Origin: Streptomyces sp. GSL17-111
GTDB taxonomy: Bacteria; Actinomycetota; Actinomycetes; Streptomycetales; Streptomycetaceae
Length of the DNA: 64,000 nucleotides
NCBI RefSeq assembly: GCF_037911585.1
Contig: NZ_JBAJNS010000001.1
Span: 190,001-254,000 of the forward strand
Direction: 5' to 3'
Under the pieces are notes generated by a model. It was not told the origin of the DNA. It saw only the letters and a program-made list of their open reading frames with translations, and made no database searches. The first letter of the stretch is position 1, and each line of letters opens with the position of its first letter. Both the position numbers and the translations under genes were made by a program. Shown here piece by piece: positions 43,733 through 46,580 of the stretch.

Positions 43733-45106
43733 TCAGAGCTGGACGTCCTCCAGGATGCCGAGGGCGTCCGGGACGAGGACCGCGGCCGAGAAGTAGGCGC
43801 TGACGAGGTAGGAGATCACCGCCTTGTCGCTCACGCCCATGAAACGGGCGTTGAGGCTGGGCTCCAGTTCGTCCGGAATGCCGCTCTGGTGCAGGCCGAC
43901 GACGCCCTGGTTCTCCTGGCCGACGCGCAGGGCCAGGACGGAGGTGGTGTTCTCGGGGGTGATGGGGATCTTGTTGCACGGCAGGACCGGAATGCCGCGC
44001 CATGCGCGTACGGTGCTGCCGTGGAGTTCGGTCTCCCCCGGGTACAGGCCCCGGGCCGTGCACTCCTGACCGATCGCCGCGATGGCCCGGGGGTGGGCCA
44101 GGAGGAACTGGGTCTTGCGGCGCCGCGAGATCAGTTCGTCGAGGTCGTCCGGCGTGGGCGGCCCCGAGCACGTGGGCAGGCGCTGGCGCGGGTCGGCGTT
44201 GTGGAGCAGCCCGAAGTCCCGGTTGTTGACGAGCTCGTGCTCCTGCCGCTCACGCAACGCCTGGACCGTGAGCCGCAGTTGCTCGGCGACCTGGTCCATC
44301 GGCTCGTTGTAGAGATCGGCGACGCGGCTGTGCACCCGCAGCACCGTCTGCGCCACGCTCAACTCGTACTCCCGCGGCGCGATCTCGTAGTCCACGAACG
44401 TGCCCGGCAGCTCCGGCTCCCCCTCGTGGCCGGACGCCAGCTCGATCTCGGCCTCACCCCGCTTGTTCTGTTTGGGGATCGCCGGTCGCGACCGGCGATC
44501 CAGGTGCTCGCGCAGCGCGGGCGACCCGTCGACGACGCCGCGGAACTCCCCCAGCGGCAGGGCCAGCACGGTGCACCGGGTGAGGGCGCGCAGGCTGTGG
44601 TCCCAGGTGCCGGGGTCGGCGGCCAGCGCGTGGTCCCCCGCCCACTCACCGTCGGCCAGCCGTCCCAGGTCGCTGTCGGCGTCGTAGGCGCCCACCGCCA
44701 CCTTGCCGACCTTGCCGTGGACGATGAGCAGCACCTCCTCCACCGGCTGGTTCTGCTCGGCCAGCAACTCCCCCGGGCTGTACTCCCGCTGGACGCAGCG
44801 GTCGGCCAGGGCGGTCAGCTCGTCGCCCTCGAAACCGGACAGGGCCGGCATCTCGGTGAGCTCGGCGGGGATGACCCGCGCCTCCCGTCCCGTGATCAGG
44901 AACTCCATCCGCCCGTTGCCGAGGGTGTGGCACAGACGCCGGTTCACCCGGTAGGTGCCGGCGGACACCTGCACCCAGGGGAGGATCTTCAGCAGCCACC
45001 GCGAGGAGATGGACTGCATCTGCGGGGGCGTCTTGGTCGTGGTCGCCAGCTGCCGCGCCGCCGCGGTGGCCAGACTCATCGGGTTCGTCGTGTCGGTCGT
45101 CGTCAT
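43733..45106 (-). CDS. Family 2B encapsulin shell protein, downstream copy (EshA-like)
   Basis: This 457-residue HK97-fold shell protein has a CNBD insert. The N-arm and first strands (ARQLATTTKTPPQMQS, SRWLLKILPWVQVSAGTYRVNRR) are nearly identical in the upstream copy. The CNBD spans about residues 85-205. The shell body resumes at SGHEGEPELPGTFVDYE, VAQTVLRVHSRVADLYNEPM and AWRGIPVLPCNKIPI, and closes with ISYLVSAYFSAAVLVPDALG. Streptomyces EshA is the classical member. Family 2B shells form 60-mer compartments. In the CNBD the phosphate-contacting Arg is not evident (WDH there). It lies 52 bp behind the upstream copy on the same strand. Confidence 0.88.
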   Translation of the reverse strand: MTTTDTTNPMSLATAAARQLATTTKTPPQMQSISSRWLLKILPWVQVSAGTYRVNRRLCHTLGNGRMEFLITGREARVIPAELTEMPALSGFEGDELTALADRCVQREYSPGELLAEQNQPVEEVLLIVHGKVGKVAVGAYDADSDLGRLADGEWAGDHALAADPGTWDHSLRALTRCTVLALPLGEFRGVVDGSPALREHLDRRSRPAIPKQNKRGEAEIELASGHEGEPELPGTFVDYEIAPREYELSVAQTVLRVHSRVADLYNEPMDQVAEQLRLTVQALRERQEHELVNNRDFGLLHNADPRQRLPTCSGPPTPDDLDELISRRRKTQFLLAHPRAIAAIGQECTARGLYPGETELHGSTVRAWRGIPVLPCNKIPITPENTTSVLALRVGQENQGVVGLHQSGIPDELEPSLNARFMGVSDKAVISYLVSAYFSAAVLVPDALGILEDVQL

Positions 45107-45158
45107 TCCGTGTCGGCCTTCGTTCGCGGGTGGTCGGGTGCGTCACGTCCGGACACGG

Positions 45159-46580
45159 TCAGTGCCCGACCTCGACGTCCTGGAGAATTCCGAGCGCGTC
45201 GGGAACGAGAACCGCCGCGGAGAAATAGGCGCTGACGAGATAGGAGATGACGGCCTTTTCGTTGATACCCATGAAACGGGCGGAAAGGCTGGGCTCGATC
45301 TCGTCGGGAATTCCCGCCCGGTGCAGCCCGACGACACCCTGTGCCTTTTCGCCGGTGCGCATGGCCAGGATGGAGCTGGTGCCCTGCGCGGTGACCGGGA
45401 TCTTGTTGCAGGGCAGCACGGGTACGCCGCGCCAGGCGGGGACCTGGTGGCCCCGCATGTCCACGGTCCCCGGGTACAGGCCGCGGCGGCTGCACTCGCG
45501 CCCGAAGGCGGCGATGGCCCTGGGGTGGGCGAGGATGACGCCCGGGTCCTTCCAGACCGTCGCGAGCAGCTCGTCCATGTCCTCCGGGGTGGGCGGCCCG
45601 GTGCGGGTGTGCACGCGCTGGCCGAGGTCGGCGTTGTGGAGCAACCCGAAGGCCCGGTTGTTGACCATCTCGTGCTCCTGCCGCTCCCGCAGGGCCTGCA
45701 CGGTGAGCCGGAGCTGCTCCTCCACCTGGTTCATCGGCTCGTTGTAGAGGTCGGCGACGCGGCTGTGCACCCGCAGCACCGTCTGCGCCACGCTCAGCTC
45801 GTACTCCCGCGGCGCGGAGTCGTAGTCGACGAACGTGCCCGGCAGCTCCGGCTCCCCCTCGTGACCGGCGGCCAGTTCGATGGCCCTCTCCCCCTCGGCG
45901 TTGTGCCGCCCGGGTGCGTCGCTGCGGAACGCGGCGAGGTGCTCGCGCAGGGCGGGGGCCCGGTCCGCGGTCTCGCCGACGGCCTCGCGCGGCAGCAGCA
46001 GGACGGTGCCGCTGGTGAGCGAGCGGAGGGTGAAGTCCCACGTGCCCGGCGACTCGGCGGTGACCTGGTGGGAACCGGCGTGGTCGCCCCCGGCCAGGAC
46101 GCCGAGCTCCGACTCCTCGTCGTACAGTCCGCTGCGCAGCTTGCGCAGCTTGCCGTGGGCGATCAGGACGATGTGTTCGACCGGGCTTCCGGCCTCGACG
46201 ACGACCTCGTCCGGCCCGAAGTCGCGCTGCACGCATCGGCCGGCGAGCTGGGCCAGGACCTCGGAGTCGGTGAATCCGCGCAGCGGCGGCAACTCCCGCA
46301 GCTCGTCGGGGATGACGGCCACCTCGGCGCCGGTGGTGGTGAACTCCACCCGGCCGTCGCCCAGGGTGTGGGTGAGTCGGCGGTTGACCCGGAAGGTGCC
46401 GCCCGACACCTGCACCCACGGCAGGACCCGCAGCAGCCAGCGCGAGGTGATGGACTGCATCTGCGGCGGCGTCTTGGTCGTGGTCGCCAGCTGCCGCGCC
46501 GCCGCCGGAGCGAGGCTCTGCCGCGCACCGGAGCCGTTGCCGCCGGAATGCATCTCGATCGGATCGACCGAAGTCGTCAC
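45159..46580 (-). CDS. Family 2B encapsulin shell protein, upstream copy (EshA-like)
   Basis: This 473-residue paralogue of the shell protein just downstream shares the same order: N-arm, HK97 strands, CNBD insert (about 105-215), then the shell body. It ends ISYLVSAYFSAAVLVPDALGILQDVEVGH. It is strongly conserved with its neighbour outside the CNBD and the linker after it, where the two differ most. GTG 46580 is preferred, with AGGTGG 9 bp upstream; a GTG at 46592 would add four residues. The CNBD cassette reads AGSHQ..TWDFTLRSL and lacks the usual Glu and Arg. No known Family 2B cargo gene (terpene cyclase, prenyltransferase, xylulose kinase) adjoins it. Confidence 0.87.
   Translation of the reverse strand: MTTSVDPIEMHSGGNGSGARQSLAPAAARQLATTTKTPPQMQSITSRWLLRVLPWVQVSGGTFRVNRRLTHTLGDGRVEFTTTGAEVAVIPDELRELPPLRGFTDSEVLAQLAGRCVQRDFGPDEVVVEAGSPVEHIVLIAHGKLRKLRSGLYDEESELGVLAGGDHAGSHQVTAESPGTWDFTLRSLTSGTVLLLPREAVGETADRAPALREHLAAFRSDAPGRHNAEGERAIELAAGHEGEPELPGTFVDYDSAPREYELSVAQTVLRVHSRVADLYNEPMNQVEEQLRLTVQALRERQEHEMVNNRAFGLLHNADLGQRVHTRTGPPTPEDMDELLATVWKDPGVILAHPRAIAAFGRECSRRGLYPGTVDMRGHQVPAWRGVPVLPCNKIPVTAQGTSSILAMRTGEKAQGVVGLHRAGIPDEIEPSLSARFMGINEKAVISYLVSAYFSAAVLVPDALGILQDVEVGH

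Follow-up and report, generated by a model that had tools for sequence, protein, structure and literature searches.

Which protein fills an encapsulin shell whose genes have no recognised cargo gene beside them? The question is raised by a tandem pair of shell genes, here called Enc1 and Enc2, in a 64,000-nucleotide stretch of Streptomyces sp. GSL17-111 DNA (contig NZ_JBAJNS010000001.1, positions 190,001 to 254,000), which was analysed as a whole and is referred to as the window. We propose that the shell receives its cargo in trans, namely a predicted geosmin synthase encoded 2.8 Mb away on the same chromosome, and we hold the chances of this proposal to be evenly balanced. Published work is cited by PMC identifier and is drawn on in excerpts.

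The shell gene pair

Enc1, the upstream gene, occupies 45159..46580 of the window and Enc2, the downstream gene, 43733..45106, both on the minus strand with 52 bp between them (C1:233733-236580 in genome coordinates). Enc2 starts with ATG and encodes 457 amino acids (aa). The longest open reading frame (ORF) of Enc1 spans 45159-46592 (477 aa), and a GTG at 46580 is a likelier start than the one at 46592. The two proteins match PF19307 with 454 and 448 bits and PF00027, the cyclic nucleotide-binding domain (CNBD) inserted in the shell domain, with 31.4 and 44.5 bits against a cut-off of 27.5. On the NCBIfam model NF041163, 'family 2B encapsulin' (cut-off 400), Enc1 scores 747 bits and Enc2 719 bits. 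Both combine an HK97-type shell domain with an inserted CNBD, the combination by which Family 2B is recognised, and the earlier note on this DNA, which had placed adjacent tandem 2B shell genes with CNBD inserts at these positions, was right to do so. Its description of the N-arm and HK97 segments as near-identical was too strong, since identity there is 75-79% (54/68 residues from the N-arm through the first HK97 segment, 180/241 in the C-terminal HK97 segment); the divergence is indeed greatest where the note had put it, in the CNBD (57/116 identical) and the linker after it (5/17). The residues ahead of the N-arm are identical at 6 of 14 positions. A PF19307 search of the 6.03-Mb genome gave no match beyond Enc1 and Enc2. 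The closest named relative found is Streptomyces chumphonensis (94% for Enc1, 95% for Enc2).

The best match in the PDB is 9BJE for Enc1 and 9BIX for Enc2, structures deposited as Sl-Enc1 and Sl-Enc2 of S. lydicus. Diagnostic motif 1 is present as TVWK in Enc1 and RRRK in Enc2, and the loop of diagnostic motif 2 aligns as TVDMRGHQVP and ETELHGSTVR, respectively. Two-component systems are defined by two 2B genes in tandem within 10 kb, and here the spacing is 52 bp. The structural matches and marker motifs thus place the pair in the published two-component kind, and we regard its assignment as a two-component Family 2B encapsulin, made from sequence, as near certain. In S. lydicus, Enc2 alone forms 28-nm T=1 shells and Enc1 alone forms none, and together they co-assemble in a T=1 shell with irregular tiling (PMC12407261). 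By homology, the GSL17-111 proteins likely build one mixed shell as well; mixed assembly is itself not new, having been published for these S. lydicus orthologues (PMC12407261). The same source records 503 two-component pairs, part of them without obvious cargo and placed in a class 'Other' of unassigned function, and describes the native cargo as undetermined even for the xylulose-kinase class (PMC12407261).

To this window we added 80 loci fetched with Enc1 as query. These are the best 80 of 458 matches, so the sample is biased to near relatives; ORFs were called with an in-house GC-frame caller, and several contigs are short. The pair is conserved across genomes, a check that the earlier note had proposed: two called shell ORFs are kept in 77 of the 81 loci, and 42/81 form one cargo-less syntenic class, that of the window, in which a beta-helix/AAA gene adjoins the pair and terpene cyclase, prenyltransferase and xylulose kinase are all uncalled. 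The other types carry a xylulose kinase (16 loci), a prenyltransferase alone (3), none of these kinds (6) or a two-domain terpene cyclase (14/81 by calling, 15 by homology extraction).

Beside the GSL17-111 pair we found neither a xylulose kinase nor a terpene cyclase: in the genome search, FGGY matches lie solely at C1:4.53 and 5.42 Mb and PF19086 matches solely at C1:3.06 Mb, none closer than 2.8 Mb to the pair. A prenyltransferase (F26) was not called within ~10 kb of it (no search for cysteine desulfurase was made). The earlier claim that a recognised cargo gene is missing therefore stands for the FGGY and PF19086 kinds, the nearest match being at least 2.8 Mb away, and had passed over a phosphoketolase gene at 41291-43684, which is considered below. 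Of the two options then offered, a new cargo or one encoded elsewhere, the evidence favours the second and points to the predicted geosmin synthase 2.8 Mb off, a known kind of 2B cargo.

A predicted geosmin synthase as candidate cargo

Geosmin is the smell of soil. The gene at G000:C1:3063834-3066053 (G000 being the GSL17-111 genome) is predicted to encode geosmin synthase, based on a two-domain architecture, metal motifs (DDHFLE, NDLFSYERE and NDVFSYQKE) and homology; PF19086 is matched just twice in the genome, once by each domain of this protein. Its best NCBIfam match is NF041168, 'family 2 encapsulin nanocompartment cargo protein terpene cyclase', and no library named geosmin synthase. 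On this model the shell-linked synthases of two other genomes, G240 and G141, reach 1224.7 and 1248 bits, and the unlinked synthase of G044 reaches 1181.3 bits.

Synthase-like cyclases have been described as Family 2-associated, with the motif GPTGLGTSAAR, present in the interdomain region and again at the C-terminal end, as a proposed targeting sequence (PMC8346489). The GSL17-111 synthase answers to this description, having two cyclase domains and a GPTGLGTSAAR-like motif both between them (GPRGLGTSAAD, residues 342-352) and at the C-terminus (TPRGIGTAAVRL, residues 721-732). In an AlphaFold2 model built on a 21-sequence alignment, the mean pLDDT is 84.7 and values drop below 50 in just two segments, residues 328-370 and 716-739, each of which holds one motif. 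Within that alignment G347 does not vary, and S349 and A350 hardly do. We surveyed the tails of 48 synthases from the fetched loci (28 unlinked to a shell gene, 20 linked) for the strict motif G[LIVMFP]GT[AS]A, and 41/48 carry it in one tail or both (23/28 unlinked, 18/20 linked); shuffled controls gave a mean of 0.08 and a maximum of 2. The motif persists in otherwise variable segments, the mean pairwise identity among unlinked synthases being 80% in the first domain and 64% in the second, 42% in the linker and 35% in the tail.

A shell gene adjoins the synthase in six genomes (G334, G679, G690, G755, G240 and G141). The relative G374 has a cyclase by the pair itself: a two-domain enzyme with both motifs (L151:4745-6958) lies between its Enc1 and Enc2, at a locus that shares the phosphoketolase, CNBD protein and beta-helix/AAA neighbours of the window. 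This cyclase is similar to the GSL17-111 synthase and non-orthologous. The insert shows that the locus can host such a cyclase and does not show that the GSL17-111 synthase originated there. In a 48-sequence tree the GSL17-111 synthase groups with unlinked Streptomyces synthases, and the linked synthase of G334 branches beside the unlinked lineage.

The distribution of the two genes gives further evidence. Across 297 Streptomycetaceae genomes, PF19307 was matched in 294 and the synthase (E<=1e-100) in 289. Every one of the 289 synthase genomes has PF19307, and the three genomes without PF19307 (G206, G010 and G012, under three genus labels) are also without synthase; the probability of this overlap by chance is p=1.3e-5 (p=5.0e-6 in the 289 good genomes), uncorrected for kinship. 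The eight synthase-less genomes are these three, G212, G271, G287 and the incomplete G074 and G138. Full-length 2B was checked in 20 + 80 genomes covering 95 of the 289 synthase genomes, and was found in 94/95. The remaining genome, G094, at first seemed to combine a synthase with a broken shell gene and was dropped as such a case, its shell gene being interrupted by a contig end. In a phylum-wide sample of 396 genomes, full-length 2B occurs in 26, and these include every one of the 24 that have the synthase; four more genomes match over residues 221-456 only, as 2A would. Outside the genus, 4/4 synthase genomes have full-length 2B (p=1.8e-8, uncorrected, a value that overstates independence because the genes are physically linked in three of the four). 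Genome G482, noticed for its pair-less locus, has neither shell nor synthase.

Six genomes (G000, G044, G348, G374, G424 and G552) have no 2B shell other than the pair, and all six have an unlinked synthase with both motifs. In G348 (L274, L275) a xylulose kinase lies 3.3 kb from this sole pair, and yet the unlinked synthase has both motifs, which casts doubt on a xylulose kinase cargo for that class.

A different account of the co-occurrence needs no physical contact: developmental genes may be lost together in non-sporulating lineages, which we consider a rather unlikely explanation of it. Shell and synthase are both near universal in Streptomycetaceae, two of the three genomes without a shell are, at 4.8 and 5.2 Mb, relatively small for the sample, and sporulation regulators control the geosmin and 2-methylisoborneol (2-MIB) genes (PMC8549240, PMC6428758), a tie that feeds this confounder (PMC8549240). 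At L290:5173-6829 of G287, a broken-frame shell gene abuts a geosmin synthase fragment (residues 246-365); both genes are decaying at one linked locus, so a single event can remove shell and synthase. We read this as one local decay of a shell-synthase locus, not as independent co-loss, and as weak support. Joint loss leaves unexplained both the retention of the motif in otherwise variable tails and the adjacency of shell and synthase genes within Streptomycetaceae and outside.

Several observations weigh against the GSL17-111 synthase as cargo of the pair. The main confounder is the one just described, in that a general loss of developmental genes may have affected the shell-less genomes. The synthase is unlinked to the shell pair, and its full-length match to NF041168, at 1186.2 bits, falls 14 bits below the cut-off of 1200. 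The cyclase inserted in the G374 pair shares only 369/716 residues with it, differs in the second-domain metal motifs, scores 1010.9 on NF041168 and branches with the linked cyclases, apart from the GSL17-111 synthase; G374 has an unlinked synthase besides. The family-wide overlap is counted by PF19307, which does not tell 2A from 2B. Intact 2B shells occur without synthase in G212 and G271, and 2B without synthase also in G799 and G907. In G212 the only shell adjoins genes for a cyclase and a methyltransferase of the 2-MIB type. Of the two G271 shells, one adjoins a methyltransferase of that type, and no cargo was called beside the other. EshA, the shell of the 2-MIB system, is reported to be dispensable for 2-MIB synthesis (PMC6428758). 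As for the motifs, the C-terminal one has been lost in 13/28 unlinked synthases, forming one Streptomyces clade, and 3/28 have neither motif by a loose pattern (5/28 by the strict one). In the clade without the C-terminal motif (L242, L243, L245, L246 and L248-L256), a linker motif such as GPGTSA is mostly retained. The DhaM-type ORF at 36050-36460 of the window also contains GLGTSA, so the cargo motif arises by unrelated conservation too and is unspecific on its own; we rejected it as a stand-alone marker. That ORF matches PF03610 and, at 92.8 bits, lies just under the TIGR02364 cut-off of 98.25.

The pair may instead be a shell for some other cargo encoded in trans, be it an unknown protein, a prenyltransferase, a cysteine desulfurase or an enzyme resembling xylulose kinase, or it may form a shell that stays empty and has a regulatory role exerted by its CNBDs; taken together we judge these options rather unlikely. 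Further types of 2B cargo are known (PMC8346489, PMC12407261), a pair accompanied by a prenyltransferase occurs in G799, which lacks the synthase, and the GSL17-111 FGGY kinase at 4.53 Mb is 40% identical to the xylulose kinase of xylulose-kinase-type loci. Against this, the tail motif is absent from both FGGY ORFs of the genome, the loose pattern included, and the CNBDs of 2B shells are stated to lack cyclic-nucleotide binding (PMC12407261, citing earlier work).

Enc1 and Enc2 are probably co-transcribed, and their products would tile one T=1 shell of ~28 nm irregularly, as in S. lydicus. Should the predicted geosmin synthase be the cargo, it would be captured via its two disordered segments, the interdomain linker and the C-terminal tail, with the GxGTxA motif of each docking on the inside of the shell. 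The pores would admit farnesyl diphosphate, and geosmin would leave. A shell filled in this way would mean that scans of neighbouring genes for cargo miss the real partner, the conserved synthase tails would gain a role, and a well-known microbial odour would be produced within a protein shell. More tentatively, geosmin synthase may be a Family 2B cargo wherever it is present in Streptomycetaceae, usually in trans and loaded by motif tails, in which case geosmin compartments would include all cargo-less pairs, orphan shells of the EshB kind and xylulose-kinase-type pairs as well. In the portion of the open-licence literature covered, we did not find geosmin synthase reported as a trans-encoded encapsulin cargo, and such coverage is no proof of absence.

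Phosphoketolase and other neighbours

The gene nearest to Enc2 encodes a xylulose-5-phosphate/fructose-6-phosphate phosphoketolase (41291..43684, plus strand; XFP_N, XFP and XFP_C), which could be a cargo or metabolic partner of a shell handling xylulose 5-phosphate. It ends 48 bp from Enc2, is the genome's sole match to a phosphoketolase query and is called in 17/81 loci; such a role would fit the xylulose kinase beside S. lydicus-type pairs. At a second chromosomal place in G458, G338 and G389, a lone shell gene stands tail-to-tail with a phosphoketolase (L147, L148 and L161); the G458 copy is Enc2-like, with RRRQ. These are three of the six cases, among 60 phosphoketolase regions inspected in the upper part of the match list, in which a shell gene adjoins the phosphoketolase, and the other 54 have no adjoining shell gene. 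The window's phosphoketolase is convergent with Enc2 and hence outside the shell operon. It has no extra tail, NF003619 spanning residues 4-791 of 797, and no strict tail motif. The enzyme is widespread in the genus (280/343 genomes at E<=1e-50), is retained in three loci without shell genes (L149, L150 and L153), and is uncalled in 25 of the 42 loci of the window's own syntenic class, some of whose contigs are short. We weighed phosphoketolase as cargo and did not prefer it, given its convergent orientation, the lack of a tail extension and its persistence without shell genes; we hold this role to be improbable, and a cargo in trans is better supported.

On the other side of the pair, a plus-strand gene for a beta-helix (NosD-like) and AAA ATPase protein, assigned by Pfam matches, lies at 47085..49526, divergent from Enc1, with the two starts ~500 bp apart. 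It was rejected as a partner, being kept in L149, L150 and L153, loci that have no shell genes; a search of the gaps there for shell-gene remnants gave none that was convincing (best E 0.03). A stand-alone CNBD protein of 149 aa (40697..41146, minus strand; PF00027, 48.1 bits) is found also in 6 of the 80 fetched loci, and has a weak match (E 3e-4) to the CNBD portion of the model for 2B shells.

Comparison with known systems

In cyanobacteria and Deltaproteobacteria, geoA is followed by two cnb genes encoding 471 and 469 aa (PMC7251104). Both these geoA-cnb-cnb clusters, known from cyanobacteria and myxobacteria (PMC7251104), and the terpene-cyclase-type 2B operons (PMC8346489) bring together two CNBD proteins of shell size and a two-domain cyclase, like the GSL17-111 case, and the tail motif of its synthase recurs in loci L079, L092 and L103. 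In both kinds of cluster, as excerpted, the synthase adjoins the shell genes, whereas the GSL17-111 synthase is 2.8 Mb off.

The EshA and EshB proteins of Streptomyces offer a second comparison. EshA we take to be a Family 2B shell. Like the GSL17-111 pair, EshA and EshB (paralogue SCO5249) are CNBD proteins, and they are raised during development (PMC3878966, PMC6428758). Unlike the pair, EshA is in an operon with a 2-MIB synthase, and the excerpted accounts of EshA and EshB contain no tandem pair.

A third comparison is with the S. lydicus two-component system. Its locus (L102, strain NRRL ISP-5461) encodes proteins identical to the GSL17-111 Enc1 at 284/432 residues and to Enc2 at 301/456, and the two systems have in common the Enc1-Enc2 order, motifs 1 and 2 and a CNBD in the shell domain. 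They differ in that the S. lydicus locus includes a xylulose kinase, whereas the GSL17-111 pair has none nearby and its cargo is proposed to be supplied in trans.

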